A DNA stretch of 64,000 nt from Fibrobacter sp. UWR4. Lineage in GTDB: Bacteria; Fibrobacterota; Fibrobacteria; Fibrobacterales; Fibrobacteraceae. Shown here piece by piece: positions 17,521-36,161 of this stretch. The stretch is taken from assembly GCF_003149045.1 (NCBI RefSeq), contig NZ_QGDU01000001.1:128458-192457 (forward strand). Reading direction: 5' to 3'. How positions within the stretch are numbered: position 1 is the stretch's first letter; each line of letters starts with the position of its first letter. Below the pieces are notes generated by a model. The model had not been told where the DNA came from. It made no database searches and worked only from the letters and a program-made list of their open reading frames with translations. Both the position numbers and the translations under genes were made by a program.

Positions 17521-20388
17521 ATGAAACTTGCAGCGGTCCTCGGGGGGCTTCTTGCGCTTACGGCCTCTGCAAGAAATATTCAGTCCATACCGGTATGGGA
17601 TCCTTCTGTTTTAGACAGCAAGGAGTCTACGCCCGTAATAGAGGATACGTCCAGAAGGACGGACTCCCTTGAAACTCATGGCTACAAGACCATGGAAATT
17701 ACGGTGGGCGATGGCGGTACCCAGGTGGATCAGGAACTGCGATTGTCCATTACGGGACGCTTGACCGATAGCGTCTATATAGACGCTCTTTTATCCGACG
17801 TGGGACGTAAGGCGGGGGACCAGACAACCTCGACCTTACGTGAAGTAGACCAGATCTATTTCCGTGTGGAAGCTCCCTTTGGATTTTTACATCTAGGGGA
17901 TTTGACCTGGAAGGATGAATCCCTTAGTTTGTACTCACTGGAACGCAGTTCCCTAGGTGCCATGGCGGGAGTGCGAGGAAACCTCCTGGGTGGAAAAGGT
18001 GAAGCCAGCGGTGTTTTCGGTACTGACGAGGTGGAACATTTTACCAAGGTGTTTAACGGCGTCAGCGGCCAACGTGAAGGCTATTCCATGGATGGCTCTG
18101 GCAGTTATATCCAGGTGGTACCGCAGTCCGAAACCGTGTGGCTCAATGGACGCAAACTGTCCCGGGAAAAAGACTACCGGGTGAATTATGCGGGCGGCCT
18201 GCTGGACTTTACCGGCGGCTTCATGCTGACTGCAGAAGATGAAATCCGGATAGAGTTTGATGCCTACGAAGATGAAAACATCTACACGCTCTATGGCGCC
18301 CAGGGCCATTACCGTCATGAAAACTTGTGGCTGGATGTGTCCGGCTTCAGATTGGAAAATGATGTGGACCGCCTTCGTCGGGGGGTCTGGACGGATGAAG
18401 ACTACAAGATGCTGAAATCCGACCGCGGGGATGAATTTGTCCGTGAAGATAGTCTGGGTGTACTTTCCCGCCCAAGAAGAACGGATCGCGGCGGCGCAAG
18501 AATCCGTACCCAGCTGGACCATCGTTTTTTTGCGGATGTGGAATTCGCCTTCAGCCGTGAAGATACCAATACGGTTTCCCATGAGGTGGATGGCCCCCAG
18601 GGACTAGCCTTGCGCTGGTTTGTAACTTCGGACTCCTCCAGCAATCTGAAAACGTTCCCCCTGGCTTTAGACGTAGGGGGGAGTCGAATTCAAAAAGGCT
18701 TCGACATCTCCAAATTCCAGGGTTCTTATTCGGGATGGAATTCCTATTACTTGCGGGACCAATGGGACTTGGATCTTAAGGATAGTTTCTCTCTGGCGGA
18801 TGACCTGCTTTATGATGAACTTGGTTTCCGCTTCCGTCTTGGAACAAATCTGATGGGTTCTGCGGAATGGGGCTACCGTCGGGATGAAGATGAAAGCTGG
18901 AACTCTTCCAGGGCGGCTCTCGGATTGATTCATCGCAATTCACTTGCCGCAAGTAAGTTGTCCTTGATTCATGTGGCTAGCCAGCAGGAAAGTTCCAAGG
19001 AACGTTTCCAGGCATTGCTCAATGGAGAATTCCTTCAGGGCGTGTTTAGGCCGTTTGGTTCTATGGATGGCCGCTACACCATTATTGACGGTGAGGATAA
19101 AGTCGCCTATGGTAAAAGCTCTGGCGGTTTCGGGCTGTATTTCGAAAACGGCCTGGTGAAGGAATCCGTAGGCGGCCGCATGGCAAGGCGGAAGGGAGAA
19201 TCCTATGGAAATCATTGGGAGGATTCCCTGCGGGCTGCCACCTGGCTTCAGGAAGCTTCCTATCATCATCGTTACGTCAACGTAACTCATTTGCTGCAGT
19301 TTGAACAGGTGGAGGAAAATCGTTCCGGCAAGGAAAATAACTGGGCGGGAAATCTGGATGCCCAGTTGGGAGATGAGGATGTAGGCCTTACGGGAAATGT
19401 TTCCTATAAGGTAGGCCTGACAGAAGAACAAGTCTATACGGCGGTGTATAAGGCGGTGGCGCCTGGTACCGGCGACGTTCGCTATGACAGCCTGACGGGT
19501 GCTTACATCGAAGGCGTGGATAACGGGGATTTTGTCTACGAAGGCATGGGACGTAACGATTCCATTGGGGCGGTGCTTTCTTCCGATGTATCTTTCGGCG
19601 TGGATTTGCGCTGGAATCCTGGACGTTTCCTTGGAATCGGGAACGGTATCTTGCGGGATATTACTCTTGGGGGAAGCTGGGAAGGGGAGGCTAACGATAC
19701 GACGGGGAAGAAACTTTATTTCCCGCCTTTGACCAAGAGTCGTCTGGACCGCCTGACTTCGGGAAAGATTTTTGTGGAAGGCTTGGTGGAATGGGAACAT
19801 CCTGCGGGAGCAAATCTTTCCTACAAGCCTAGCCTGGAACTGGACAAGAAGCTGTCTTCTATTTCCTATTACGAAACCATTCGCAGTCACTTGCTGGAAG
19901 GCGGTGTCACAATTGCGCTGGACCATTACGTAAGCGGATCTTTCCTGATACAGGATGAGGAACTGTCTGCCATGACGGCGTGGGACTGGCGTGTCTACGA
20001 CGGTACTTTAAAATACAGAATGGATTTTTTCCAAAGTTTCTATGTTCAGCCGGCAGGCCGTTACCGTACGGGTTCCGGTGAGGATGAAATGAATCTGGAA
20101 TTCAATGGAGAACTGTGGGAAGGTTCCTTGCGCTTGGGCTACAACCGTCAGAAAAAGGCGGATGCCTACGCACTTTTCTCTGTTATCCAGGCGGATAGTC
20201 ACGGCGACATGGTTCCGTACCAGGTGATGGATGGATATAGTGATGGACGGACCTATCGACTGGAACTTTCCGCATCTGTGGACATTAATGATTTTATTTC
20301 CATGGGTGGTCGATACATCCTAAGATTTGGAAATTCCGAGGAGAACATTTTCCAGAAGTTGAGTATGGAGGCAAGAGCTAGTTTTTAA
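17521..20388 (+). CDS. Large predicted outer-membrane beta-barrel protein
   Basis: A 955-residue protein with a signal peptide (MKLAAVLGGLLALTASA). The body is dominated by alternating polar/hydrophobic strands with aromatic girdles, and it ends in Phe (MEARASF), as outer-membrane proteins often do. One segment (TVWLNGRKLSREKDYRVNYA, then a short strand and DEIRIEFDAYE) resembles modules seen in very large surface proteins such as SprA of the type IX system. I infer a barrel with a periplasmic N-terminal domain; no family is certain. Its stop overlaps the next ATG by one base. Confidence 0.75.
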   Translation: MKLAAVLGGLLALTASARNIQSIPVWDPSVLDSKESTPVIEDTSRRTDSLETHGYKTMEITVGDGGTQVDQELRLSITGRLTDSVYIDALLSDVGRKAGDQTTSTLREVDQIYFRVEAPFGFLHLGDLTWKDESLSLYSLERSSLGAMAGVRGNLLGGKGEASGVFGTDEVEHFTKVFNGVSGQREGYSMDGSGSYIQVVPQSETVWLNGRKLSREKDYRVNYAGGLLDFTGGFMLTAEDEIRIEFDAYEDENIYTLYGAQGHYRHENLWLDVSGFRLENDVDRLRRGVWTDEDYKMLKSDRGDEFVREDSLGVLSRPRRTDRGGARIRTQLDHRFFADVEFAFSREDTNTVSHEVDGPQGLALRWFVTSDSSSNLKTFPLALDVGGSRIQKGFDISKFQGSYSGWNSYYLRDQWDLDLKDSFSLADDLLYDELGFRFRLGTNLMGSAEWGYRRDEDESWNSSRAALGLIHRNSLAASKLSLIHVASQQESSKERFQALLNGEFLQGVFRPFGSMDGRYTIIDGEDKVAYGKSSGGFGLYFENGLVKESVGGRMARRKGESYGNHWEDSLRAATWLQEASYHHRYVNVTHLLQFEQVEENRSGKENNWAGNLDAQLGDEDVGLTGNVSYKVGLTEEQVYTAVYKAVAPGTGDVRYDSLTGAYIEGVDNGDFVYEGMGRNDSIGAVLSSDVSFGVDLRWNPGRFLGIGNGILRDITLGGSWEGEANDTTGKKLYFPPLTKSRLDRLTSGKIFVEGLVEWEHPAGANLSYKPSLELDKKLSSISYYETIRSHLLEGGVTIALDHYVSGSFLIQDEELSAMTAWDWRVYDGTLKYRMDFFQSFYVQPAGRYRTGSGEDEMNLEFNGELWEGSLRLGYNRQKKADAYALFSVIQADSHGDMVPYQVMDGYSDGRTYRLELSASVDINDFISMGGRYILRFGNSEENIFQKLSMEARASF

Positions 20389-21761
20389 TGAAAAATGTCT
20401 GGATGTATACGTTGTTGCTTGCGACTCTGGTCGTGACAGCCTTCGCTTCCGAAGGTTGCCGCATTGAACGCATTGTCTGGACGGGAGATCATTCGGATGC
20501 TGATGACGCCGCCATGAATATTGTGGTAGGTATGCCTTGCGATTCCTGGAAGTCTACGGCGGAAAAGCTTGTGTCCGAATATGAAAATCAGGGTTTTATT
20601 TCTGCGGTAGTTGATGGGATTGTGGATTCTGCGGGTGTATTGTCTGTGGAATTCCGTCGCGGTCCGGCGTTCGTCTGGGCGGGCAGTGAAAATCTGGACT
20701 CCTCGGGAACGATGCCCGAAGTGTTCCGCAAGCTGGCGGGATTAACGGCAGGCGACCTCGTGCGGCCTCTGGATTTGGAACGTGCGGAAAATCGCCTTGC
20801 CCGCTTGGGATATTTCGAGCAGACCGCCCCAGCAGTCATGTTCCGCGATCCCACCCGAAATAGAATTGTCCCTGCGTTCAGTATGCGTGGGGCGGCTGTA
20901 TCCGAGGCGCAGGCCCTGCTGACTTATTCCAGCCAGGACAACGTGTGGGAAGGCTCCATCAACGTTTCGCTGTATAACATTCTGGGAACCGCCCGAGATC
21001 TGGAAATCGATGGCTTTACCTCCGAGGATTCCCGCCGTCTGGAAGGCTCCTACAAGGAACCTTGGATTTTGGGGACGGAATGGAACCTGGTTGCCCGCGG
21101 TTATTTTGACGAGGATTCTTCCACTCGGGAAGCCTATGGCGAAATCGGCATTACACGGGATATTGGCTTTGACTTTTCCATTGGAGTCTTTGTGGGTGTG
21201 GGGGATAACGAGAAAACGTCCTCCCTGGAAATTGCTTACGTCTCCCTGGACCGTTTCGCCTTGCCTCGCTCCGGAACTCGAATCAAGGCATCCGCGATCT
21301 GGAACATGGCACGTCCCGATTCCCTGGATCATTTCCTGCGTGTAAAAGCAGGTCTGACGAAATATGTTCCCGTATACAAGAACTGGATTGTCCGTGCTGG
21401 CGGTCAGGCAGGCGGCATCTTTGCTACCGACGCTTTATTGGACCGCTCGGATTATTTTGCGCTTGGGGGCATGAACGATTTCAAGGGGATGGACTATCGT
21501 TTCCTGCGGACTCGTGCCTACGGCTATTCTGAATTTGCACTCCTTTGGCAGGATGGTTACAACTTAAGTATCGAAGCTTTCTATCAGCCGGGCCTGTACC
21601 GCGAATTGCAGGATGATCATGGCTGGAAGGAAGAGCATGAATATGGCCTTGCCTTTACCCAGTACCGCAAGAACTGGAGTGTGAACCTTTATTACGCTTT
21701 GCGAAATGGCGAAAACTATATGGACGGAATTATCGGAATTGGCGTGAAGACGCTGTTCTAG
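20388..21761 (+). CDS. Omp85/TamA-like outer-membrane protein
   Basis: A 457-residue protein with a signal peptide (MKNVWMYTLLLATLVVTAFA). About two POTRA-like repeats occupy residues 25-160 (IVWTGDHSD...GFISAVVDG; AGDLVRPLDLERAENRLARLGYF). A C-terminal barrel of roughly 280 residues contains YFALGGMNDFKGMDYRFLR, the Omp85-type GG..x..RG-like loop, and ends in IGIGVKTLF with terminal Phe. It is shorter than BamA. It probably inserts, or pairs with, the barrel encoded just upstream. Last gene of the mglA operon. Confidence 0.82.
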   Translation: MKNVWMYTLLLATLVVTAFASEGCRIERIVWTGDHSDADDAAMNIVVGMPCDSWKSTAEKLVSEYENQGFISAVVDGIVDSAGVLSVEFRRGPAFVWAGSENLDSSGTMPEVFRKLAGLTAGDLVRPLDLERAENRLARLGYFEQTAPAVMFRDPTRNRIVPAFSMRGAAVSEAQALLTYSSQDNVWEGSINVSLYNILGTARDLEIDGFTSEDSRRLEGSYKEPWILGTEWNLVARGYFDEDSSTREAYGEIGITRDIGFDFSIGVFVGVGDNEKTSSLEIAYVSLDRFALPRSGTRIKASAIWNMARPDSLDHFLRVKAGLTKYVPVYKNWIVRAGGQAGGIFATDALLDRSDYFALGGMNDFKGMDYRFLRTRAYGYSEFALLWQDGYNLSIEAFYQPGLYRELQDDHGWKEEHEYGLAFTQYRKNWSVNLYYALRNGENYMDGIIGIGVKTLF

Positions 21762-21860: not shown

Positions 21861-21911
21861 GTGAAATGAGGTTGATTCTTGGTCGTGGTGGTGAAAGTCA
21901 GTCATCTTCCA

Positions 21912-21932
21912 TATGATTCAAGATGAATCATA
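21912..21932. promoter_or_regulatory. Palindrome TATGATTC-N5-GAATCATA (putative operator)
   Basis: Arms of 8 bp around AAGAT, 118 bp upstream of the Ser-rich lipoprotein ATG. The same core occurs, with longer arms, beside the TIGR02147 regulator gene at 24118-24148. Confidence 0.65.
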
Positions 21933-22050: not shown

Positions 22051-23202
22051 ATGATTAAAAAGTTTTCTATTGCTTGCGCTGTTGCTTCAATAATTGTCGC
22101 CTGCGGAGATACAGAAAGTGGCACTGAAGCAACGGATGTTATCCCTGAAAATAATTCTTCGTCCTCAGTTGAAAATTTTGAATCCAGTTCCTCTGAAGAC
22201 TCTTTCGAAAAACCGGTTTCTTCTAGCCAGAGTATTTTATCTAGTTCTGATTTCCCGTCAAGTTCCTCTAGTGAATTTTGGTCTTCTTCAGAATTCTTAT
22301 CGTCTTCAGTACAGTATTCTTCTTCTGAACAAATTTCGTCATCATCAGATGATCAATCCGAATCATCCTCATCTGCGGACGAACAATCGATATCTTCGTC
22401 ATCTGTAGAGCAACAGATTTCGTCATCAACGGAACAACCGACGTCGTCTTCCGTCGATGAACAGAACTTTTCGTCGTCCTCTGTTGAATCTTCTTCCTCT
22501 TCAGAGGAACAATCATCATCTAGTATTGCTCCCAAAATTTGCGGACCCGAACCCGCATCCTTGAATTTGGAAGAAGTCTTTGAAAATCAGAAAAAGGCTC
22601 TTTTCCCGGATACCTGCGAATACGTCATGAATATTCATGTTAATTCCGGAGGCTTGATCAGTATGGATTTAAGAACTAGCGTTCTTACTGCAGGTCCTAC
22701 AAAGTCAGTAATGACGACTCGATCTAGTCTTACCAACACGCAAACAGTAAGGAACGATGGTCGTGTGAAAGTTACTGACATGAGAACAGGAAATCGCTTG
22801 CCTAGTTCCGATGCAGAAACAAATCTTGCTGACTTTACGCCGTTGATAGGAACTGCTGCGGACTATTCCGGTGCGGTTCTGGAGGATTCTTTGTGGAAAC
22901 TGATTCCTATTGATGAAAAGACTCCTACGCTGTATTACTCCACCTGCGAAGAACGCGTCATGAAAATCTTTTATGTTTCGGGGGACTCTTCAACGACTAA
23001 TACTTATACCTATACCGACGAGTTTGCCGGTATGTCTGGAGTCTTGAAAACGATGCACTTAGATCGGTCTGTTTATTTGAGAGACGCATCGTCTCGCGAA
23101 CTTTTTAAATCCGATTCCATTAAGGTTCTTATCGATTTAGAGGTCCTGGTTGCAAAAAAACGTAGTGTTCTTCCGTCGGCACTATTTGATGTGACTAGGT
23201 GA
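22051..23202 (+). CDS. Ser-rich surface lipoprotein
   Basis: A 383-residue protein with a lipoprotein signal (MIKKFSIACAVASIIVAC, Cys 18). Residues 30-160 are an extreme low-complexity linker of Ser runs mixed with Glu, Gln and Val, as in many Fibrobacter surface lipoproteins. The globular C-terminal half (from about ICGPEPASLNLEEVF) contains few Cys and no family I recognise. GGAG lies six bases before the ATG. A palindrome shared with the neighbouring regulator region lies upstream. It converges with the TIGR02147 gene. Confidence 0.85.
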   Translation: MIKKFSIACAVASIIVACGDTESGTEATDVIPENNSSSSVENFESSSSEDSFEKPVSSSQSILSSSDFPSSSSSEFWSSSEFLSSSVQYSSSEQISSSSDDQSESSSSADEQSISSSSVEQQISSSTEQPTSSSVDEQNFSSSSVESSSSSEEQSSSSIAPKICGPEPASLNLEEVFENQKKALFPDTCEYVMNIHVNSGGLISMDLRTSVLTAGPTKSVMTTRSSLTNTQTVRNDGRVKVTDMRTGNRLPSSDAETNLADFTPLIGTAADYSGAVLEDSLWKLIPIDEKTPTLYYSTCEERVMKIFYVSGDSSTTNTYTYTDEFAGMSGVLKTMHLDRSVYLRDASSRELFKSDSIKVLIDLEVLVAKKRSVLPSALFDVTR

Positions 23203-23212
23203 ATTCTAAAGC

Positions 23213-24028
23213 CTACACTTTTTTCGTCAGGGGGAACATCTGCAGGTTGATTCGGAAAACCTGGTTGATGTTCTTGGCGGCGGAAGTGATGGCTGTGATT
23301 CGGTCGCGGCAATCCTCTAGTTCGGCGGTTACTTTCTTGTAGGTTTCCTCGTCGCAGCCGCAGGTGATTCCTAGAAAGTGGCGTTCGTCCTTTGAAAACT
23401 TGCCGATGGCCTTTTCGGCGAGAGCTGCCATTTGACGCTGCATTTCGCGTATGGCGCGGGGGAGACTTTCCTTGGAACCGGTCACATTTGCATCGGTTTG
23501 CGTATAGCGTCCCTTATTATCCTTTTCCAGGAAGCCGGCTTTCACCAAAAATTGCAGAGTATTTTCAACATCCTCAGCGCAAATTTTTTCGTGGCAGGCA
23601 TCTGCGATTTTCTTAGAACTTGCTCCAGGCATCAAGGGAACCAATTCGCGAAGGACTGGGTACTTCCAGGATTCGTAAAAAACGTAGGCATCGGCATCGA
23701 TAATGCGGGCTTTTGACTTGCGTGCCTTTTTGCGCAATTCTAAAGTCAATGTTTTCCGATGAGCTTCATTAGTGGTGTTGTCGATGGCGACCATCAGCTC
23801 AAAGAATTCCTGTTCGCTGGCGGACAAATTCATTACGGCTGCAACGAATCCCGCCCTTTTCTTGCTTAGCTTGCTTTTTCCGTCGCAAACAAGCTTCAGG
23901 TAGTTGGGGGAGGCAAATCCTGCTAATCTGTTGAATTCACGCCAGGAGAAAGCGGAATGTTTCTTGCGTTCCTCAAAATAATCCCTGATGAAATCTCGAT
24001 AGTCACTGTATCCAAAGATGGGTTTCAT
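23213..24028 (-). CDS. TIGR02147/DUF4423-family putative transcriptional regulator
   Basis: A 271-residue cytoplasmic protein. I start it at the ATG at 24028 (MKPIFGYSDYRDFIRDYFEERKK), the characteristic N-terminus of this family. Further family features are FSWREFNRLAGFASPNYLKLV, which looks like a helix-turn-helix, SKKRAGFVAAVMNLS, YYESWKYPVLRELV-type and LQFLVKAGFLEKDNKGRY (second winged-helix-like unit). The family was first noted as paralogs in F. succinogenes, typically next to surface-protein genes. Its divergent promoter region holds a perfect 13-bp-arm palindrome, a good candidate for its own binding site. Confidence 0.85.
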   Translation of the reverse strand: MKPIFGYSDYRDFIRDYFEERKKHSAFSWREFNRLAGFASPNYLKLVCDGKSKLSKKRAGFVAAVMNLSASEQEFFELMVAIDNTTNEAHRKTLTLELRKKARKSKARIIDADAYVFYESWKYPVLRELVPLMPGASSKKIADACHEKICAEDVENTLQFLVKAGFLEKDNKGRYTQTDANVTGSKESLPRAIREMQRQMAALAEKAIGKFSKDERHFLGITCGCDEETYKKVTAELEDCRDRITAITSAAKNINQVFRINLQMFPLTKKV

Positions 24029-24117
24029 GTATTTGAATATAGTTTTTTGATTTGTCAATTCGGATTTTGAAAATGTGTAGTGAAATTGACTTTGGAATAA
24101 ATTCTTGAAAAACGTTT

Positions 24118-24148
24118 TTCTATATGATTCACAATGAATCATATAGAA
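24118..24148. promoter_or_regulatory. Perfect 31-bp palindrome between regulator and lipoprotein genes (putative operator)
   Basis: TTCTATATGATTC - ACAAT - GAATCATATAGAA; all 13 arm positions pair. It lies 89 bp before the regulator start and 87 bp before the plus-strand lipoprotein start, so it could control both. The core is shared with 21912-21932, and the right arm is repeated exactly at 25628-25640. Confidence 0.72.
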
Positions 24149-24235: not shown

Positions 24236-25477
24236 ATGAAGATTTTTTATTCACTGGTTTTAACGATAGCCTTGTTTTTTGTAGCGTTTGGCTGCTCCGA
24301 AAAGGAAACGGCGGGCAATGCCACGGAACCCAATACGATTGGCGAGATTGAATCGTCTAGTTCTGTGGCGGTGGTGCCGCAAAGTTCTTCAGAAGTTCAT
24401 GAGATCATCTTCACCACAAAACCGTCTAGCGAAAATCTTCTCGGTAGAACAGTTGTGCGTGTTTATCAAGAAGAACAGGGTGCGCAAGGTACATGTACCG
24501 TGGGTGAAATCGTCTTTACTGCTGCGTTTAAAATTGTAGGCAGGGGCGTGCTTACTTATTCAAGTGCCCAGTCGGTTGCGTCTTACGACATGTGCAATTC
24601 CCTATGGAAGGATGTTTCTGAGGAATGCTTTGCTGACGATGCAATCTTGCTGGATGAAAATGAAAACTGCAGTGAAAAATCCTTTGATGTTTTGTGTCGC
24701 GTAGAACGGACTGGCGAACGTAATTTCGATCATGAACTTTCTGAATTTGAAAGACGCTTTGTTTCTGCTTGCGACAAGTTGGCTGGCGCGAATTCTGGGA
24801 AACCGACGTCTGGACATTTTGAATCCGCCGTACTTCCCAATACAGGATCTTCCGGCGCTTCCAGCGGATATGAACCGATGGAAAGTTCCTCCAGTGAGGA
24901 ATTATTTTATGAAGAAAAGGAACCCTACAGTTCTTCTTCAAGATCATATTCTATGGAAGAAATTTACGCAGAGGAAAACTCCATGGCTCCGCAACAAATT
25001 CTTGAGTCGTATAAGCCTGATGTAAAGGTCGATTCCTTTGCTCGTCGAGATAATCGCGGAGTGCTTTGGTATGAAATTGACTTTACAGAAGAACGAACCA
25101 TTGTTCATGAATACTATAGCGCGGATGGTTGGCGCTCGTGTGTTGTTTATGTGAACGAACCACAAATTGCTCTTGTTTATGATGTTACGGATGGATTTGA
25201 TATAGTTACTTTCCAACAATATTTGTTCATGAAAGGACCGTCCGTAAATTCTGTGGAACGCCTTGTAATTTTCTCCCATCACCACGAATCAATTGATGAA
25301 GAATATGTCCCGAAATTTAGTAGTCAATGTGCAGAAAACGAGGGAGTATTGACAGAACATCTGCAGAGTGATGACATCAGATATTGGACCTGCGATAGAA
25401 ACTTTGTGCCTTCTGTTTCTGCAAGGCGTTACTTGTACGAACGCGCGCTGGAACTGAAAAACTATTGTGTGGAATAA
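24236..25477 (+). CDS. Ser-rich surface lipoprotein
   Basis: A 413-residue lipoprotein (MKIFYSLVLTIALFFVAFGC, Cys 20). It has two Ser-rich linkers (ESSSSVAVVPQSSSEV; GSSGASSGYEPMESSSSEE) around a first domain with paired Cys, and a second domain after about residue 255. Neither domain is recognised. It is divergent from the TIGR02147 regulator and shares its palindromic control region. Confidence 0.85.
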   Translation: MKIFYSLVLTIALFFVAFGCSEKETAGNATEPNTIGEIESSSSVAVVPQSSSEVHEIIFTTKPSSENLLGRTVVRVYQEEQGAQGTCTVGEIVFTAAFKIVGRGVLTYSSAQSVASYDMCNSLWKDVSEECFADDAILLDENENCSEKSFDVLCRVERTGERNFDHELSEFERRFVSACDKLAGANSGKPTSGHFESAVLPNTGSSGASSGYEPMESSSSEELFYEEKEPYSSSSRSYSMEEIYAEENSMAPQQILESYKPDVKVDSFARRDNRGVLWYEIDFTEERTIVHEYYSADGWRSCVVYVNEPQIALVYDVTDGFDIVTFQQYLFMKGPSVNSVERLVIFSHHHESIDEEYVPKFSSQCAENEGVLTEHLQSDDIRYWTCDRNFVPSVSARRYLYERALELKNYCVE

Positions 25478-25627
25478 GAAGTTTTTTCGTGTCTAAACTC
25501 TAGATGGTCTTTAATTTATTGATTTGTTGTTAAAATACACCTACTAGGTTGTCGAAAGAATTTGAAAAATATATGTTTGTCATATATGGAATCTAATTTG
25601 ATGCGTAAAATCCATATAATACGCTAT

Positions 25628-25640
25628 GAATCATATAGAA
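25628..25640. promoter_or_regulatory. Half-site GAATCATATAGAA upstream of outer-membrane protein copy 1
   Basis: Identical over 13 bases to the right arm of the palindrome at 24118-24148, and 39 bp upstream of the ATG at 25680. No matching left arm is present. It is absent upstream of the duplicate gene at 29000. Confidence 0.45.
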
Positions 25641-25652
25641 AGAATTTTTTTT

Positions 25653-26267
25653 CCCGTTTTAACAAGGAATAGTTCAAGTATGAAAAAGATCGTTCTCCTA
25701 ATTTGCCTTTGCTGCGCACTTGCCGCTGCAGAAGAAAATAAACATAAGTGGATTGTGGATGTGGGTGGTGGTTTTGCCTTTTGGTCCACGTTTACGGACT
25801 TTAGTCTAGGAATGAGAAACTTCGACAGCGAAGAAGTGCAGGATGAAATTGATGGTGGCACCAATTGCATTGTGGTGAACCTCGGTGCTCGTTACCAGCT
25901 CGTAAAAATGTTGGAACTTGGCTTTGCCACCGGCTACGAATATTACGCCTCCAAGGTGCACCCTTACCATAACGAGAAAGGCTATTTGAAATACGCCGAC
26001 ATCAAGGATAACCATATTGTTCACCTGGCTGTGGAATCGAAGGTGGACTGGGTTAGTTTTCTTGACCATGTGCAGATATACTCTCGTCTAGGTTTAGGCG
26101 GAGTCCTGGAAATTTCAAAGGTGGACGATTATGAGGTTGGCTTTGGACTGCCGAATTTCCAGTTCAGCCCCATTGGCATTGAATATGTAGGCACGGTGGG
26201 TTTTTACGCAGAAGCGGGTGTTGGTTACCGAGGTCTTTATTCGGGCGGCGTGAGCTTTAGATTCTGA
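25653..26267 (+). repeat. Duplication copy 1 (outer-membrane protein and its leader)
   Basis: Nearly identical to 28922-29587. The shared block begins at CCCGTTTTA(A/T)CAAGGAATAG upstream of the gene. Copy 2 has about 50 extra bases between that leader and the ATG. Similarity ends at the stop codon. Confidence 0.85.
25680..26267 (+). CDS. Small outer-membrane beta-barrel protein, copy 1
   Basis: 195 residues with a signal peptide (MKKIVLLICLCCALAAA) and alternating strands; it ends in GGVSFRF with terminal Phe, as 8-stranded outer-membrane barrels do. I start at the ATG at 25680. An in-frame ATG 54 bases upstream would put the palindrome arm and leader inside the protein. Only 7 residues differ from the copy at 29000. 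Function unknown. Confidence 0.85.
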   Translation: MKKIVLLICLCCALAAAEENKHKWIVDVGGGFAFWSTFTDFSLGMRNFDSEEVQDEIDGGTNCIVVNLGARYQLVKMLELGFATGYEYYASKVHPYHNEKGYLKYADIKDNHIVHLAVESKVDWVSFLDHVQIYSRLGLGGVLEISKVDDYEVGFGLPNFQFSPIGIEYVGTVGFYAEAGVGYRGLYSGGVSFRF

Positions 26268-26301
26268 TAAATTTGAATTTCACAAAAGGATGGTTTCTTT
26301 G

Positions 26302-27246
26302 ATGAATTATTCAAAATGGATGTTTGGATGCTTTGCTGCTTTAAGCTTTTCCATGCTTATAGCTTGTGGCGGCGATAAAATTTCATATATAACTGAACTA
26401 AATCAGACTGTTGGAAAGCTGGACGCTGGTGAAAAACTTGGCGTATGTTCTCCGGATATTTTTGGCGAAACCGTTTTTGTGACGGACTCGGCGGCGATCT
26501 TCTTTTGCAATGATCATAACTGGGTTCGCATGACTTTTGCCGATGAGAAGGATACGGTAGTCATCATGGATTCTGTCTATGTGTTTGAGGCTGATTCCGG
26601 TTGCTCTTTCAAAATTCTGGATGGCAAGGTCTATACCTTGGTTTGCGAGAGCGATACCTTGTGGTTCGATAAGAAAGATCCCGTAAGTTCTACAGATAAA
26701 GTGGAGTACGGAGTCTTCACGGATTCTCGTGACGGAGCCAAGTATAAGACGGTAGAAATTGGGACGAAAACCTGGATGAGCGAGAACTTGAATTTTGGGG
26801 ATAGCGCCGCTGTTCCTGAACTGGTCGGTAAATCCTGGTGCTATAACGGTGATCTTGATAAATGCGCAGAATATGGCCGCCTATATACTTTTGATGCCGC
26901 AAAGAGTGCCTGCCCTGCAGGGTGGAGGCTTCCCTCGGAAGATGACTGGAATGAGCTTTTAGACAAAGTCCTTGGTGATGGTGGTTCGAAAGAATGGAAG
27001 GATGGTGTGCCTTACCTGATTTCTTCTACAGGATGGTCTGGTGTTGATGCTGCAGGTGACTTTGATTTCTCCGCTTATCCCGCAGGAACCAAAAAGTACA
27101 ACAGTGATTCTTTCTATGGGCTGGGGGACGAAACGAACTTCTGGAATGAAGACGGTTCCTGCCTGATGATAAAAAGCAATTCCCTTATAATCGAATCCCA
27201 TGTTAAGAATTATGGCTTCTCCGTAAGGTGCGTAAAAAACACATGA
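26302..27246 (+). CDS. FISUMP-domain lipoprotein
   Basis: A lipoprotein (signal ending FSMLIAC). I prefer the ATG at 26302, with GGATGG nine bases upstream, over the ATG at 26290, which has no spacing to the AAAGGA. After a beta-rich N-terminal part with Cys pairs comes a FISUMP domain: FTDSRDGAKYKTVEIGTKTWMSEN, YTFDAAKSACPAGWRLPSEDDW, FSAYPAGTK, FWNEDGS, SVRCVKN. Its last codons overlap the start of the next FISUMP gene (ATGA). Confidence 0.88.
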   Translation: MNYSKWMFGCFAALSFSMLIACGGDKISYITELNQTVGKLDAGEKLGVCSPDIFGETVFVTDSAAIFFCNDHNWVRMTFADEKDTVVIMDSVYVFEADSGCSFKILDGKVYTLVCESDTLWFDKKDPVSSTDKVEYGVFTDSRDGAKYKTVEIGTKTWMSENLNFGDSAAVPELVGKSWCYNGDLDKCAEYGRLYTFDAAKSACPAGWRLPSEDDWNELLDKVLGDGGSKEWKDGVPYLISSTGWSGVDAAGDFDFSAYPAGTKKYNSDSFYGLGDETNFWNEDGSCLMIKSNSLIIESHVKNYGFSVRCVKNT

Positions 27247-28169
27247 TTAGAAATATCATCCGAAAACTAATGGCCTTTGTTACGGCGTTTTTTTGGACGG
27301 ACAAGTCTAAGGTGTTTTCGGGTGTGTTGGCTTGCTTCTGGTCGGTGCAGCATATTGCCTGTGCCTATGGTACAGACGATGGCTTAGAATGTGACGATGA
27401 TTGCCTTTACGATCCCGTAGTCGATACTGTTGCCACGTTGGGCGATTTACCACCTTGTGACTATATCGGAAAGGATGACGTTCCAACCTTTGTTGCAAGT
27501 GAAAATGCAGACTATTACTGCAGCGAGCATCAGTGGCTTTCATCAACAGAAATTCTTTGTGAAGAAAAACCGCCCATAAAGCCGTTTGAATACGAATTCT
27601 TCACTGATCCTCGGGATGGTTATGTTTATCGGTTGACAAGGATTGGTTCGCAGACATGGTTTGCCGAGAATCTCCGTTTCAAGACGGAAAAATCCATTGC
27701 TCCCGATGGTGAGCTGTTTAACGTAGTGGGTCGCTATTATACCTGGAAGGATGCTCAGACAGCCTGCCCCGAAGGATTTCACATTCCTACTTCTGAAGAA
27801 TGGAAGGAAATGTGGTTATTTGTTACCGAGGATAATGGTTGTGAAAATGTAGGGGCCAGCTTGAAAACGGATAGCCTCTGGAGCGAATATCTTAAGCCCA
27901 GTACAAACATTGTTCAGGGGAACGAAGATGCGCTTGTTGGAACGAACCGCTACGGATTCAAAGCCGTTCCTGCTGGTAGTTATTTAGAAAAATCCGACGA
28001 ACTTTATCTTCTAGGACAGTTAACCCGTTTTTGGTCAAATGATAACTACCGTGGTAAAATTGTGGCAGAATCCTGGGTTATGGATTTTTGGGGTGACAAT
28101 TTCTTCGATGACGAGTCTGCAAATCCTAATTGGCGAATATCCGTCCGTTGTATAAAGGATTTTGAATGA
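27243..28169 (+). CDS. FISUMP-domain surface protein
   Basis: About 308 residues. The ATG at 27243 overlaps the preceding stop as ATGA, implying translational coupling. The N-terminus is hydrophobic with HIAC as a possible lipobox, but the signal is atypical and long. The FISUMP domain shows FTDPRDGYVYRLTRIGSQTWFAEN, YTWKDAQTACPEGFHIPTSEEW, YGFKAVPAGSY, RFWSNDNY, SVRCIKDFE. It ends 23 bp before the truncated epmB copy. Confidence 0.85.
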   Translation: MIRNIIRKLMAFVTAFFWTDKSKVFSGVLACFWSVQHIACAYGTDDGLECDDDCLYDPVVDTVATLGDLPPCDYIGKDDVPTFVASENADYYCSEHQWLSSTEILCEEKPPIKPFEYEFFTDPRDGYVYRLTRIGSQTWFAENLRFKTEKSIAPDGELFNVVGRYYTWKDAQTACPEGFHIPTSEEWKEMWLFVTEDNGCENVGASLKTDSLWSEYLKPSTNIVQGNEDALVGTNRYGFKAVPAGSYLEKSDELYLLGQLTRFWSNDNYRGKIVAESWVMDFWGDNFFDDESANPNWRISVRCIKDFE

Positions 28170-28192
28170 GAAGAATATTATTAAACGATACT

Positions 28193-28906
28193 TTATGTAT
28201 AAACTAATTCTTCTTTAGCTTGAATCAGGAAATTTTCTTCATCCAGTTCGTCGGGATGGTCCACATGGCTTACCAGTACGCAGTCAAAACGGGCGGGCAA
28301 TTCCTTGAGGAAATCCATGTGCTGCTGGACTAGGTCCGGACGCATGACGGGCAGTCGGGTGTGTATGCGAAGTGTGGTAACGGAACTGTGGTCCCCGATG
28401 GCCTCGATAAGGCTCTCCAATTTGGCGGGAGCGAGTGTCAGGGGGTCGCCGCCGGAAAGGATTACTTCCCAAATGTCGGAGTGTGTGTCCAGCCAGCTTC
28501 CGACCTGAGTGTCTATGTCGGGGGTGTTCTGGAAGGGGTAGTTTCTACGGAAGCAGAACCTGCAGCGCACACCGCAGGCGGCAGTGGTGACAATCAGGGC
28601 GCGCTGGTCATATTTCTGGATGACGCATTCACATTTGCCTGCGGGCAGGTCGACGACAGGGTCGTCCACGAAGCCAGGAACGTCCTGGTATTCGTCCTTG
28701 GTGGGGAGAACTTCTCGCAGTAGTGCTGCCGGTTCCTTTGCATTCTTGATTAGGTCGGCATAATGCCTGGAACAGAGAAAGGGGAACGAGGGGGCGAGGT
28801 CCAAGTTTACAAGATAATGCGTTTTGGCGATCAAATCTGCAAAATCGGGGCCTAAATAATCCAAAAAGTCGGATATTTGCGTGAATACGGGAAATGCTTG
28901 TTCCAT
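28193..28906 (-). pseudogene. Truncated epmB paralog
   Basis: 237 codons aligning to residues 1-223 of the intact epmB at 29670-30644, including the radical SAM triad CGVRCRFC. After DELDEE the reading frame runs into 13 unrelated codons and a stop. The last 100 residues of the intact copy, which include the family's C-terminal segment, are missing. The 5' half is about 80% identical in protein. A stretch of about 100 bases near 28340-28446 is identical in DNA. Activity is unlikely but cannot be excluded. Confidence 0.8.
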
Positions 28907-28921
28907 TATATTACTAAACTT

Positions 28922-29587
28922 CCCGTTTTATCAAGGAATAGTTCAAAAAACGCAATAAAAGTTCCTTCTCGTGGAGAATGCATTTTATAAATTCTTAGTA
29001 TGAAAAAGATTATTCTCTTAATTTGCCTTTGCTGCACACTTGCCGCCGCAGAAGAAAATAAACACAAGTGGATTGTGGATGTGGGTGGCGGTTTTGCCTT
29101 TTGGTCTACGTTTACGGACCTTGGTCTGGGAATGAGAGACTTCGACAGCGAAGAAGTGCAGGATGAAATTGATGGTGGCACCAATTGCATTGTGGTGAAC
29201 CTCGGCGCCCGTTACCAGCTCGCAAAAATGTTGGAACTTGGCTTTGCCACCGGCTACGAATATTACGCCTCCAAGGTTCACCCCTACCATAACGAGAAAG
29301 GCTATTTGAAATACGCCGACATCAAGGATAACCATATTGTTCACCTGGCTGTGGAATCAAAGGTGGACTGGGTTAGTTTTCTTGACCATGTGCAGATATA
29401 CTCTCGTCTAGGTTTAGGCGGAGTCCTGGAGATTACAAAGGTGGACGATTATGAGGTTGGCTTTGGACTGCCGAATTTCCAGTTCAGCCCCATTGGCATT
29501 GAATATGTAGGCACGGTGGGTTTTTACGCAGAAGCGGGTGTTGGTTACCGAGGTCTTTATTCGGGCGGCGTGAGCTTTAGATTCTAG
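28922..29587 (+). repeat. Duplication copy 2 (outer-membrane protein and its leader)
   Basis: Second copy of 25653-26267, with about 50 extra bases in the leader. The left junction with epmB-derived promoter sequence (ATTATATTACTAAA) is near 28921. Confidence 0.85.
29000..29587 (+). CDS. Small outer-membrane beta-barrel protein, copy 2
   Basis: 195 residues, signal peptide MKKIILLICLCCTLAAA, C-terminal Phe. It differs from copy 1 at seven positions (Val5Ile, Ala13Thr, Phe41Leu, Ser42Gly, Asn47Asp, Val75Ala, Ser146Thr). It converges with the intact epmB gene and is divergent from the truncated one. No family recognised. Confidence 0.85.
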   Translation: MKKIILLICLCCTLAAAEENKHKWIVDVGGGFAFWSTFTDLGLGMRDFDSEEVQDEIDGGTNCIVVNLGARYQLAKMLELGFATGYEYYASKVHPYHNEKGYLKYADIKDNHIVHLAVESKVDWVSFLDHVQIYSRLGLGGVLEITKVDDYEVGFGLPNFQFSPIGIEYVGTVGFYAEAGVGYRGLYSGGVSFRF

Positions 29588-29669
29588 AATTTTTGGGTTG
29601 TGAATTTTTGAAACAATAATAGATAAACTAATGATTTTTTAGTTCGAGTTAGAAAATCAGACGTCGGTT

Positions 29670-30644
29670 TTACACCGGCGTCTTGCTTTTTTCGCCGGCG
29701 ATTTCGCGAACTAGGCGGGGAACCAGATAGCCGGGAAGTTTTGTGCGGATTTCTGCAACCAGGGCTTTTGCCTGGTCATCGCTGATTTCGTAGTGGGCAA
29801 CGCCCTTGGCGTGATCCAGCTGGTGGATGTAGTAGGGGAGGACTCCCTGCTGGAAAAGTTTGCGACAAAGCTTTGTCATGGTGTCTGCGTCTTCGTTCAC
29901 GCCCTTCAGGAGGACACTCTGGTTGAGAAGCGTCCAGCCAGCAAATTTCAGCTGGCCAAAAATAATCTGGCTTTCTTCGTCCAGCTCGTCGGGATGGTCT
30001 ACGTGAGAGACCAGTACGCAGTCGAAGCGGGCAGGCAGTTCTTTTAGGAGTTCCATGTGCTGCTGGACCAGGTCCGGGCGCATGACGGGCAGTCGGGTGT
30101 GTATGCGAAGTGTGGTAACGGAACTGTGGTCCCCGATGGCCTCGATAAGGCTCTCCAATTTGGCGGGAGCGAGTGTCAGGGGGTCACCTCCGGACAAGAT
30201 CACTTCCCACACGTCGGAATGGGTGTCCAGCCAGCTGCCCACCATGACGTCGATGCCCGGTGTATTCTGGAAGGGGTAGTTCCTACGGAAGCAGAACCTG
30301 CAGCGGACACCACAGGTGGCGGTTGTCATGATGAGGGCGCGTTTCTCGTATTTCTGGATGACGCATTCGTTCTTGCCTGCGGGAATATCGCCAACTGGGT
30401 CGTCGGTAAAACCGGGAACATCCAGGTATTCTTCCTTTGTGGGGAGAACTTCACGCAAAAGGGCTGCCGGGTTCTTTGCCTGCTTGATCAGGTCTGCATA
30501 GTGCCTGGAACAGCAGAAAGGGAACGTGGGGGCCAGGTCCGTGTTGGCTAAATAGGGGGTATTTGCAATCAAAGCCCTAAAATCGGGGCCTAAATACTCC
30601 AAAAAGTCGGAAATTTGCGTGAATACGAGCGTGGGGTTTTCCAT
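29670..30644 (-). CDS. epmB: EF-P beta-lysylation protein EpmB (KamA-type radical SAM)
   Basis: A 324-residue short-form lysine 2,3-aminomutase-like enzyme that makes beta-lysine for EF-P modification. The 4Fe-4S site is CGVRCRFC. Other features are VILSGGDPLTLAPAKL (SAM region), VLVSHVDHPDELDEE, GVNEDADTMTKLCRKLF and the C-terminal LPYYIHQLDHAKGVAHYE. It is divergent from efp with 44 bp between the starts, a classic functional link. The ligase gene epmA is not in the window. Confidence 0.92.
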   Translation of the reverse strand: MENPTLVFTQISDFLEYLGPDFRALIANTPYLANTDLAPTFPFCCSRHYADLIKQAKNPAALLREVLPTKEEYLDVPGFTDDPVGDIPAGKNECVIQKYEKRALIMTTATCGVRCRFCFRRNYPFQNTPGIDVMVGSWLDTHSDVWEVILSGGDPLTLAPAKLESLIEAIGDHSSVTTLRIHTRLPVMRPDLVQQHMELLKELPARFDCVLVSHVDHPDELDEESQIIFGQLKFAGWTLLNQSVLLKGVNEDADTMTKLCRKLFQQGVLPYYIHQLDHAKGVAHYEISDDQAKALVAEIRTKLPGYLVPRLVREIAGEKSKTPV

Positions 30645-30688
30645 TATATTACTAAATTTAGCAACATAAATATCAAAAAGAGGATAAT

Positions 30689-31255
30689 ATGGGTACTGTA
30701 AGCACCAACGAATTCCGTAAGAAGCTTAAGATTATGGTTGACGGTCAGCCGTATGAAATCATTGAAAACCAGTTCGTGAAGCCGGGTAAGGGCCAGGCTT
30801 TCAACCGCGTTCGTATCAAGAACCTGGTTACCGGCCGTACTCTCGAACGTACTTGGAAGAGCGGTGATACCGTCGAAGAAGCCGATGTTACTTACGGCGA
30901 AATGACCTACAGCTACAATGATGGCACCAACTGGTTCTTCATGGATTCCGAAACCATGGAAATGGTGGAAATCCCCAAGGAAAACCTGAACGGCGCTGAA
31001 ATGTGGCTCCTCGACGGTGCTACTGTTGAAGTGACCTGGTGGGATGGAAAGGCTATCGAAGTCATTCCGCCGACCTTCGTCGACCTCATGATCATTGACG
31101 CTCCTCCGGCTGTCCAGGGTAACACCAGCGGTAACGTTCTCCGTGAATGCACCGTTGAAACTGGCGCTAAGGTGATGATTCCGCTGTTCATCGAAAACAA
31201 CACCAAGATCCGCGTCGATACTCGCGACGGTTCTTATCTCGAAAGAGCTAAGTAA
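30689..31255 (+). CDS. efp: Elongation factor P
   Basis: A 188-residue factor that rescues ribosomes stalled at polyproline. The N-terminal KOW-like domain carries the tip motif KPGKGQAFNR, whose middle Lys is the site of beta-lysylation in E. coli-type EF-P. This fits the adjacent epmB. The C-terminal OB domains end in TKIRVDTRDGSYLERAK. AAAGAGG precedes the ATG. The many Pro-rich proteins here (dnaG tail, mglA tail) would be likely clients. Confidence 0.96.
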   Translation: MGTVSTNEFRKKLKIMVDGQPYEIIENQFVKPGKGQAFNRVRIKNLVTGRTLERTWKSGDTVEEADVTYGEMTYSYNDGTNWFFMDSETMEMVEIPKENLNGAEMWLLDGATVEVTWWDGKAIEVIPPTFVDLMIIDAPPAVQGNTSGNVLRECTVETGAKVMIPLFIENNTKIRVDTRDGSYLERAK

Positions 31256-31336
31256 TTCGTCCAGACAAGAACGTGTGACTACTTAGCTCTTACGCTGGAT
31301 AGAAGCGCGTACTTGAAGGATAATTCTTTGTTGAAT

Positions 31337-33850: not shown

Positions 33851-33938
33851 TAATCATTTGATGTTCTTGGCTTCCCTAAAAAAAATGGATGGTGATATAC
33901 CTATATTTTACTCCATATTTTTCAACAGGAATCTCAGC

Positions 33939-36161
33939 ATGGTTCGTAACATTTTTAAGATGGTTGTGGCTGTTGCCTTGGCTCTTTCCGCTACGGTCTT
34001 TGTGGGCTGTAATGAAGGTGATCCTCTGGCAAACAAGGTTCACAAGGTTAGTGACCTTGGCAAGAAGAAGGTTGGGGTCCAGATTGGTAACACCGCCGAC
34101 ATTTACGCCAGCGAGTATGTTGGCGATACCAACAAGATTGATGTGGAACGCTACACCAAGTTGGCCGACGCTGTCCAGGCTCTGAAGCAGGGCAAGATTG
34201 ATGCTGTTCTTCTGGATGACCAGCCGGCAATTTACTTTGTGAAGCAGAATCCGACTCTTCGTGTTTTGGACGAAGCCTTCGTGGAAGAAACTTACGCAGG
34301 TGTCATTGCCAAGGGTAACGAAGGCCTGCTGGATACTTTCAACCTGGTGTTGAAGGAAATGCACGAGAACGGAATCTTTGATTCCCTGATGAACACTTAC
34401 ATCAACGGTACAGGTTCCTACCATTATGCTCAGAAGGTGAAGGAAGGCCCGAAGCTTGTTCTGGCTACCAACGCTCAGTTCCCGCCCTACGAATATCACG
34501 AAGGCGAATTTATCGTTGGTCTGGAAATTGAACTGGCTTACTACCTGGCCGACAAGATGGGCCGCGTGCTGGAAATCCAGGACATTGAATTTGACGCTGT
34601 GATTAACGCCGTAAGTTCCGGCAAGGCTGATTTGGGCCTGTCTGGCTTTACTGTTACGGAAGAACGGAAGAAGTCCATTAACTTCACCGACAAGCTGGTG
34701 GACAACAAGGTGGTGGTCATGGTTCGTAGCGACATCAAGGCTGACGAACTGGACAACAAGGTTTTTGCTGTTAGTGACCTTGGCAAGAAGAAGGTGGGGG
34801 TCCAGATTGGTAACACCGCCGACATTTACGCCAGCGAGTATGGTGGCGATACCAACAAGATTGATGTGGAACGTTACACCAAGTTGGCTGACGCTGTCCA
34901 GGCTCTGAAGCAGGGCAAGATTGACGCTGTTCTTTTGGATGACCAGCCGGCAATTTACTTTGTGAAGCAGAATCCGACTCTTCGTGTTTTGGACGAAGCC
35001 TTCGTGGAAGAAACTTACGCAGGTGTCATTGCCAAGGGTAACGAAGGCCTGCTGGATACTTTCAACCTGGTGTTGAAGGAAATGCACGAGAACGGAATCT
35101 TTGATTCCCTGATGAACACTTACATCAACGGTACAGGTTCCTACCATTACGCCCAGAAGGTGAAGGAAGGTCCCCATCTGGTGCTGGCCACCAACGCTCA
35201 GTTCCCGCCCTACGAATATCACGAAGGCGAATTTATCGTTGGTCTGGAAATTGAACTGGCTTACTACCTGGCCGACAAGATGGGTCGTGTGCTGGAAATC
35301 CAGGACATTGAATTTGACGCTGTGATTAACGCTGTCAGTTCCGGCAAGGCCGACCTTGGCCTTTCTGGCTTTACCGTTACGGAAGAACGGAAGAAGTCCA
35401 TTAACTTCACCGACAAGCTGGTGGACAATCGCGTGGTGGTTCTGGTCCGTACGGGCATGAAGGAAGCTTCTGAAGAATCCTTTGGAGAAAAGTTCCATAA
35501 GAACTTCATCAAGGATAACCGCTGGAAGTACATTGCCGAAGGTCTCCGCAACACCTTGATTATTGCCTTGTGCGCCGCCGCTCTGGGCATCCTGATTGGC
35601 TTCCTGGTGGCTATGGTCCGCGTAAACCATGAATTCAATGGCAAGTACAAAATCGCCAACTGGATTTGCAAGGCTTACCTTGCCGTCATTCGCGGAACCC
35701 CGATGATGGTACAGTTGTTGATCATCTACTACATCGTGTTCTCTTCTGTGAATATCAATAAGCTGCTTGTGGCCATTATTGCCTTCGGTATTAATTCCGG
35801 CGCCTACGTTTCTGAAATTATCCGCGGCGGTATCAAGGCGGTGGATCCGGGTCAGATTGAAGCTGGCCGTAGCCTTGGCCTGAAGTTCAAGACGGTGATG
35901 CTTCATGTGGTTTACCCCCAGGCTTTCAAGAACTCCTTGCCGGCGCTCACCAACGAATTTATCTCTCTCATCAAGGAAACTTCTATTTGCGGCTACATCG
36001 GCCTTACCGATTTGACCCGCGGTGGCGATATTATCCGAAGCCTTACCTACGAAGCCATGTTCCCGTTGATTTCTGTGGCTATTGTTTACTTCATCATTGT
36101 GGCAGGCCTTTCTACCTGCGTGGCTCGTCTTGAAAAGAAACTGAAGAAGAACGAGCGTTAA
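33939..36161 (+). CDS. GlnP-like fused amino-acid ABC transporter with permuted, duplicated substrate-binding halves
   Basis: A 740-residue lipoprotein/permease fusion, starting at the ATG at 33939 (signal ending TVFVGC, Cys 24). The SBP_bac_3 fold is present as halves in the order C-N-C-N. The C-terminal half ([20 protein letters not shown]...MNTYING) begins at residue 37, and the N-terminal half ([19 protein letters not shown]...VVVMVR) at 173. Both are repeated 241 residues later with about 4 substitutions. The last N-half runs straight into the membrane domain ([16 protein letters not shown]; permease EAA motif EAGRSLGL). Lactococcal GlnP has two complete binding domains before the permease. 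The next gene is its ATPase. Confidence 0.88.
34047..35454 (+). repeat. In-frame 723-bp tandem duplication inside the transporter gene
   Basis: Copy 1 starts at 34047 and copy 2 at 34770 (GTTAGTGACCTTGGCAAGAA in both). Similarity runs to about 34731 and 35454. The offset is 723 bp, exactly 241 codons. DNA and protein are nearly identical, so the duplication is recent or homogenised. Confidence 0.92.

Follow-up and report, generated by a model that had tools for sequence, protein, structure and literature searches.

A recombination mosaic of surface-protein genes at the epmB locus of Fibrobacter sp. UWR4

The window, a stretch of 64,000 nucleotides from the genome of Fibrobacter sp. UWR4 (contig NZ_QGDU01000001.1, positions 128,458 to 192,457), contains two neighboring units, in each of which a gene for a presumed outer-membrane protein (OMP) converges on epmB. 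In the left unit two genes with FISUMP domains, FISUMP1 and FISUMP2, are situated between these genes, and epmB is truncated. Repeats in the window far exceed chance, with 300-nt blocks at 94% and 87% identity. The initial annotation, made from the sequence alone, had read the locus as a tandem duplication with the FISUMP pair at the break; every OMP, FISUMP and epmB gene that it listed is indeed present. The features of the locus are as follows.

20388..21761, plus strand: left anchor, a 457-aa Omp85/BamA-like protein (B457; PF01103 E 4e-14, TIGR03303 E 2e-19).
21907..21920, minus strand: operator-like site with 1 mismatch, in palindromic context, 5' of the gene for the 383-aa lipoprotein-like protein.
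22051..23202, plus strand: 383-aa Ser-rich lipoprotein-like protein (residues 127-383 98% to relative G011).
23213..24055, minus strand: TIGR02147 (Fsuc_second/DUF4423) family protein (TIGR02147 E 1.3e-78).
24118..24148, no strand: perfect 14-bp inverted repeat TTCTATATGATTCA-nnn-TGAATCATATAGAA between the TIGR02147 and lip413 genes.
24236..25477, plus strand: lip413, a 413-aa lipoprotein-like protein.
25627..25640, plus strand: operator-like half-site 5' of the left OMP gene.
25680..26267, plus strand: OMP_L, the left OMP, 195 aa (reading frame opens at 25626).
26290..27246, plus strand: FISUMP1, lipoprotein-like, with a C-terminal FISUMP domain (TIGR02145 E 1.2e-42).
27243..28169, plus strand: FISUMP2, a FISUMP-domain protein (TIGR02145 E 2.7e-40).
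28193..28906, minus strand: epmB_L, the left epmB, truncated, 237 aa.
28233..28234, no strand: deletion joint in the left unit, 312 bp missing relative to G011.
28917..28921, no strand: tandem joint, where epmB upstream sequence meets the OMP leader.
29000..29587, plus strand: OMP_R, the right OMP, 195 aa, without an operator-like site.
29659..29683, plus strand: terminator-like hairpin between OMP_R and epmB_R.
29670..30644, minus strand: epmB_R, the right epmB, intact, 324 aa, mosaic.
30689..31255, plus strand: efp, elongation factor P, the right anchor (NF001810 E 1.2e-68).

The two epmB copies differ in completeness. The TIGR03821 match of epmB_R runs to the end of the profile (E 3e-91, 305.7 bits, under the curated cut-off of 369.3), while that of epmB_L stops at position 221 of 321. 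The right copy, which adjoins efp, has the radical-SAM motif CxxxCxxC. Its C-terminal SKTP lysine corresponds in the alignment to the KTP lysine of lysine 2,3-aminomutase 2a5h; in EpmB/KamA, this C-terminal lysine is the one that binds pyridoxal phosphate (PLP). Homology of the left copy to the right one extends over about 225 codons; a short unrelated tail follows, so that some 100 codons have been lost toward the FISUMP genes. The left copy keeps the radical-SAM part, lacks the C-terminal third with the lysine and, judged from this alignment, should therefore not bind PLP. Against six relatives, the ratio of its nonsynonymous to synonymous divergence (dN/dS) is 0.10-0.15, as it should be if the gene was under constraint until recently.

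Among 80 genomes of the genus, 77 of which have epmB, only that of the window carries two epmBs on one contig. Two other candidates were set aside: in G097 the two epmBs lie on different contigs and contamination is 8%, and in G075 one gene is split between contigs. Both arrangements of the window are observed singly in relatives. In G011, OMP, FISUMP1 and FISUMP2 converge on one intact epmB, and in G076 the OMP gene converges directly on one intact epmB with nothing between. Window positions 28920-31257 are colinear with G076 at 90% with 5 gaps, and the right intergenic region has 3 differences from it in the first 100 aligned columns. The window holds a G011-type unit followed by a G076-type unit; these are two structural alleles and not recent copies of each other. 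The convergent OMP-epmB unit, regarded in the initial annotation as the original one, does exist by itself, in G076; the two units of the window are not duplicates of a single such ancestor.

The FISUMP genes were also found in other combinations. FISUMP2 alone adjoins the single intact epmB of G025, and a FISUMP1-like gene alone that of G036; in G009, some 9 kb of sequence with further FISUMP genes separates OMP-FISUMP2 from epmB. These arrangements bear on the proposal of a duplicated OMP-epmB unit whose left copy later received the FISUMP pair at the break, an event that would have truncated epmB. The necessary genes are present, and G076 has the unit without FISUMP genes. However, G011, G025 and G036 carry FISUMP genes beside single intact epmBs, so that these genes occur at the site without any duplication, and the proposal thus fails its own test. 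The pair was not captured at a recombination point in a duplicated copy, since G011 has it beside one intact epmB. The segment also lacks terminal repeats above chance at its ends: the longest direct repeat is 7 nt (shuffled mean 6.7, maximum 9) and the longest inverted repeat 6 nt (shuffled mean 6.4). Moreover, the sequence downstream of FISUMP2 is undamaged, as are 50-odd bp of the usual intergenic sequence, and a separate deletion begins only beyond them. Duplication followed by insertion is hardly credible.

The deletion, at 28233/28234, removes 312 bp relative to G011, has a microhomology of 2-3 bp, and takes the end of epmB_L together with the terminator-like hairpin. The hairpin sequence (29659-29683 in the right unit) is also found in G076, G011 and G025, between OMP or FISUMP2 and epmB, and has been lost from the left unit. 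Because the FISUMP2 downstream sequence is kept, the FISUMP pair did not cut epmB. The loss of about 100 codons on the FISUMP side stands as first described; the deletion itself starts in shared intergenic sequence and not at the pair. The units are joined head to tail at 28917-28921, in agreement with the earlier placement near 28921. Here the OMP leader abuts sequence 12 bp 5' of the start of epmB; the microhomology is at most 3 bp, with one changed base.

OMP_L and OMP_R are 96.3% identical, while the window OMPs are 95.6-97.4% identical to those of G011, G009 and G076. Likewise, the synonymous divergence (dS) between OMP_L and OMP_R is 0.11, compared with 0.05-0.14 between OMPs of different species. 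epmB_L and epmB_R are 82.5% identical with a dS of 0.67, like epmBs of different species. For neither gene are the two copies closer to each other than to their orthologues in sister species, as recent duplicates would be. The OMP_L leader lacks about 50 bp that relatives have. By eye, the OMP_R leader (28921-28999) looks nearer to that of G009 than to those of G011 or G076, a further sign of mosaicism.

epmB_R is itself a mosaic of three segments: about 30644-30189 is G025/G076-like, 30189-30039 is epmB_L-like, and 29985-29670, the last 104 codons, is G011-like (permutation p <= 5e-5). Its dS to G025 is 0.25 over codons 1-152 and 1.95 over codons 153-220, and its dS to G011 is 0.15 over codons 221-324 and 0.94 over codons 1-152; in the swapped parts of these comparisons dS is 0.8-2.0. 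Codons 156-203 are near epmB_L, with a dS of 0.15 and a 107-bp exact match. In the tree of the 5' part, epmB_R groups with G025 (support 88/87) and then with G076 (99.8/100).

A mosaic right epmB would also fit another history, in which OMP-FISUMP1-FISUMP2-epmB was duplicated locally and in tandem in this lineage; a G076-type fragment would then have overwritten the right unit, removing the FISUMP pair, and another allele would have taken the place of epmB_L. In its favor are the simple head-to-tail joint with microhomology and the evident overwriting of epmB_R through homologous recombination. Nevertheless, several later replacements are needed to account for identical stretches between the units of no more than 150 bp (OMP) and 107 bp (epmB), which makes such a history rather unlikely.

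The genes of the block have moved between species. While metH is 81-85% identical to that of six relatives, with a dS of 0.90-1.33, the dS of the genes in the block is 0.05-0.14 for OMP, 0.11-0.15 for FISUMP2, 0.13-0.29 for lip413 and 0.18-0.31 for TIGR02147, each gene being compared with about three of the six relatives, those carrying it intact. Values of 0.05-0.31 between species against 0.90-1.33 for metH indicate that the block genes have been exchanged horizontally. FISUMP1 departs from this low-divergence pattern. Its last 105 nt or so are 95-100% identical to G011 and the remainder is 52-85% identical per 60-nt window, so that it is a mosaic too.

Of 54 loci examined in relatives, 24 have the Omp85-like gene on the 3' side of epmB and could be compared at the site of the block; in the other 30 the stretch of sequence does not contain this gene, and in four of these it ends less than 500 bp from epmB. 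In 19 of the 24 the site is empty, the Omp85-like gene converging directly on epmB across a gap of 3-223 bp. The other five (G076, G036, G012, G026 and G025) have a gap of 1.9-3.9 kb with other genes in it, and in the window the gap to epmB_L is 6.4 kb. The stretch between the Omp85-like gene and epmB-efp is a recombination hotspot, with conserved flanks and both empty and variably filled sites. Among the variable contents are genes for a RelB-type antitoxin and a VapC-type toxin, situated between lip413 and OMP in G011 (L053 3633-4477); the window is without them, and G077 keeps a RelB remnant of this module.

Taken together, the locus is probably a tandem of two structural alleles at this exchange hotspot, illegitimately joined and then patched and deleted. 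Through recombination, Fibrobacter species would have acquired, lost and traded with one another a surface-gene block (TIGR02147 regulator, lip413, OMP, FISUMP1 and FISUMP2), which left in this genome OMP-FISUMP1-FISUMP2-epmB followed by OMP-epmB. The units would have become connected head to tail by an illegitimate joint of the sequence just 5' of epmB with an OMP leader. After or during the joining, epmB_R may have been patched by homologous recombination, so as to acquire its G025/G076-like front, epmB_L-like middle and G011-like end. A separate event, the 312-bp deletion, would have turned a redundant epmB_L into a remnant without its PLP site and removed the terminator.

Several points weigh against this explanation. 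The order of the events is tentative, and the donor species are inferred. The dS of efp is also low, 0.18-0.45, so that low divergence is not confined entirely to the block. The identity of OMP_L and OMP_R is higher in the 3' half (98-99%) than in the 5' half (93-95%). This is not the pattern expected from a simple one-ended insertion at OMP, which is therefore not favored as the way in which the tandem arose. In the tree of the 3' part of epmB, epmB_R and G011 group at only 57.1/80. Among ordered parent pairs, the permutation test gives p < 0.01 in 24 of 30 for epmB_R and in 18 of 30 for the metH control, and is for this reason not decisive alone. For the G025/G011 pair, the maximum descent in epmB_R is 74 over 222 informative sites (p 0.0005; reverse order 83), and in metH 23 over 436 (p 0.006; reverse order 83, p 0.005). 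The epmBs of other relatives reach p <= 0.0005 in 1-3 of 20 parent pairs, and metH in 0-3; epmB is therefore not a general patchwork. The case for a mosaic epmB_R rests more on the dS contrast than on these p values.

Finally, the unit order comes from one draft assembly, in which the units share a 150-bp exact repeat. Two strains that lived together and had different alleles might accordingly have been merged by the assembly into a chimera: the close relatives include several metagenome-assembled genomes from horse feces, and the window genome may be of this kind too, the assembly consists of 93 contigs, and the exact matches of 150 bp and 107 bp shared by the units mean that their order or copy number could be misassembled. 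However, the tandem and deletion joints have at most 3 bp of homology and cannot be products of k-mer collapse, so that they should be real in some cell, and the contamination estimate is 0.12%. A chimera is distinctly improbable.

With the tandem of two exchanged alleles as the preferred explanation, the puzzling "duplication" resolves into two alleles, each known singly from related species. It implies an exchange of DNA between Fibrobacter species with metH only 81-85% identical, reaching into a gene for the modification of a translation factor. The locus is a real, well-resolved recombination mosaic, and the process is of a known, ordinary kind. Searches of the literature on Fibrobacter recombination, on metagenome-assembled Fibrobacter genomes from horses and on illegitimate recombination listed nothing on this locus.

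The part most worth following is the regulator and its palindrome. With up to 2 mismatches, TGAATCATATAGAA occurs 4 times in the 64 kb, compared with 0.38 expected, and none of 100 shuffles reaches 4. All four sites are inside the block: one before the 383-aa gene, two in the TIGR02147-lip413 palindrome and one before OMP_L. Genome-wide, the exact matches number 4, of which 3 lie in the block and 1 just 5' of a lipoprotein-like open reading frame on C12; a further 4 sites differ at a single position, and 1 of these belongs to the block. A reversed-pattern control gives 0. The motif is kept before OMP in G011, G009 and G076, is absent before OMP_R, and in G074 sits between two divergent FISUMP genes. 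A terminator scan scored the palindrome at 24118-24148 as terminator-like, and a promoter scan of the window found 13 promoters against 13.5 expected. The TIGR02147 gene (23213..24055) is likely to be the regulator of the block, and the position and enrichment of the sites suggest that its protein may bind the palindrome, a candidate binding site to test; the terminator-like score and the 26 matches to the TIGR02147 family in the genome call for caution here. It is possible, if somewhat doubtful, that the block is a self-contained mobile surface-protein cassette, comprising TIGR02147 with its own putative operators and sometimes RelB/VapC, and using epmB as a homologous landing arm. If so, the operators (TTCTATATGATTCA-nnn-TGAATCATATAGAA) would precede three transcription units with genes for lipoproteins, OMP and FISUMP proteins, and would be a first target site for the uncharacterised TIGR02147 family, a name that occurs in no text found by a search of open-licence PubMed Central (PMC) papers.

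As for the other proteins of the block, the outer-membrane label of the 195-aa protein is a fair guess, which no NCBIfam or Pfam model match at E 0.01 backs. The idea that known mobile elements carry these genes was set aside: OMP has no tblastn match in plasmid and phage collections, and for lip413 the viral contigs gave a single match, of 21 residues (381-401) at 57%. The genes of FISUMP1 and FISUMP2 overlap by ATGA, and FISUMP2 is 95-96% identical to its counterparts in G011, G009 and G025. Both exceed the TIGR02145 and PF09603 cut-offs (TIGR02145 146.6 and 138.9 bits, cut-off 41.65). The family has 96 matches in the 3.6-Mb genome, so that a FISUMP pair near a recombination point, singled out at first as notable, is unremarkable. 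Arrays of large FISUMP lipoprotein-like genes lie beside epmB in G009 (L054 7211-16452) and G074 (L120 189-8077).

No solved structure is credibly related to FISUMP2 by sequence at E up to 1. Its structure model (pLDDT 67.9) aligns best with C-type-lectin-like and related domains, namely those of Legionella Lcl (Z 7.7, 5.4 Å, 109 aligned), Bdellovibrio Bd2740 (Z 7.7, 3.0 Å, 97 aligned), the diversity-generating-retroelement protein TaqVP (Z 7.7, 3.9 Å, 160 aligned) and Mtd (Z 7.2, 3.7 Å, 130 aligned). Nearly all the matches listed are lectin-like or variable-protein domains, but Z stays below 8 throughout (best 7.7) and the best Foldseek E is 0.025; a C-type-lectin-like fold is a candidate for the FISUMP domain. 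The FISUMP proteins would probably have a ligand-binding role at the surface. An excerpt of PMC4159848 names Fib_succ_major among diversity-generating-retroelement targets and as similar to DUF1566, and one of PMC4704652 reports TIGR02145 as a putative cellulose-binding protein family with 17-119 copies per Fibrobacteres genome, C. alkaliphilus excepted (see also excerpts of PMC4619616 and PMC3079729). The literature search found the word "FISUMP" in no paper and Fib_succ_major in 4.

Elsewhere in the window, 33858-36161 encodes an amino-acid ABC-transporter-like protein whose solute-binding region, repeated in tandem, is joined to a permease-like part; G011 and G036 share this layout.

Compared with EpmB of the KamA-type radical-SAM lysine 2,3-aminomutase family, the right copy is alike in motif, lysine and efp neighbor, whereas the left copy differs in having no C-terminal third. 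The FISUMP proteins resemble the FISUMP/Fib_succ_major family (TIGR02145, PF09603) in their over-cut-off matches and high copy number, and their domains show nothing unusual. Chromosomal hotspots, in which genes come and go between conserved flanks, are a general bacterial phenomenon. The present locus is similar to them in its conserved anchors (Omp85-like and epmB-efp), its variable contents, and recombination that reaches into a flanking core gene. It differs in containing surface genes of Fibrobacter type accompanied by a TIGR02147 gene of their own, and in that no integrase or repeats were seen. In Porphyromonas gingivalis, the diversity of surface-protein genes is ascribed, in an excerpt of PMC5266723, to rearrangement and allelic exchange, and the two systems are alike in diversifying such genes by exchange. 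In Fibrobacter, however, the exchange would be between species with about 81-85% identical metH, and has left two alleles in tandem.

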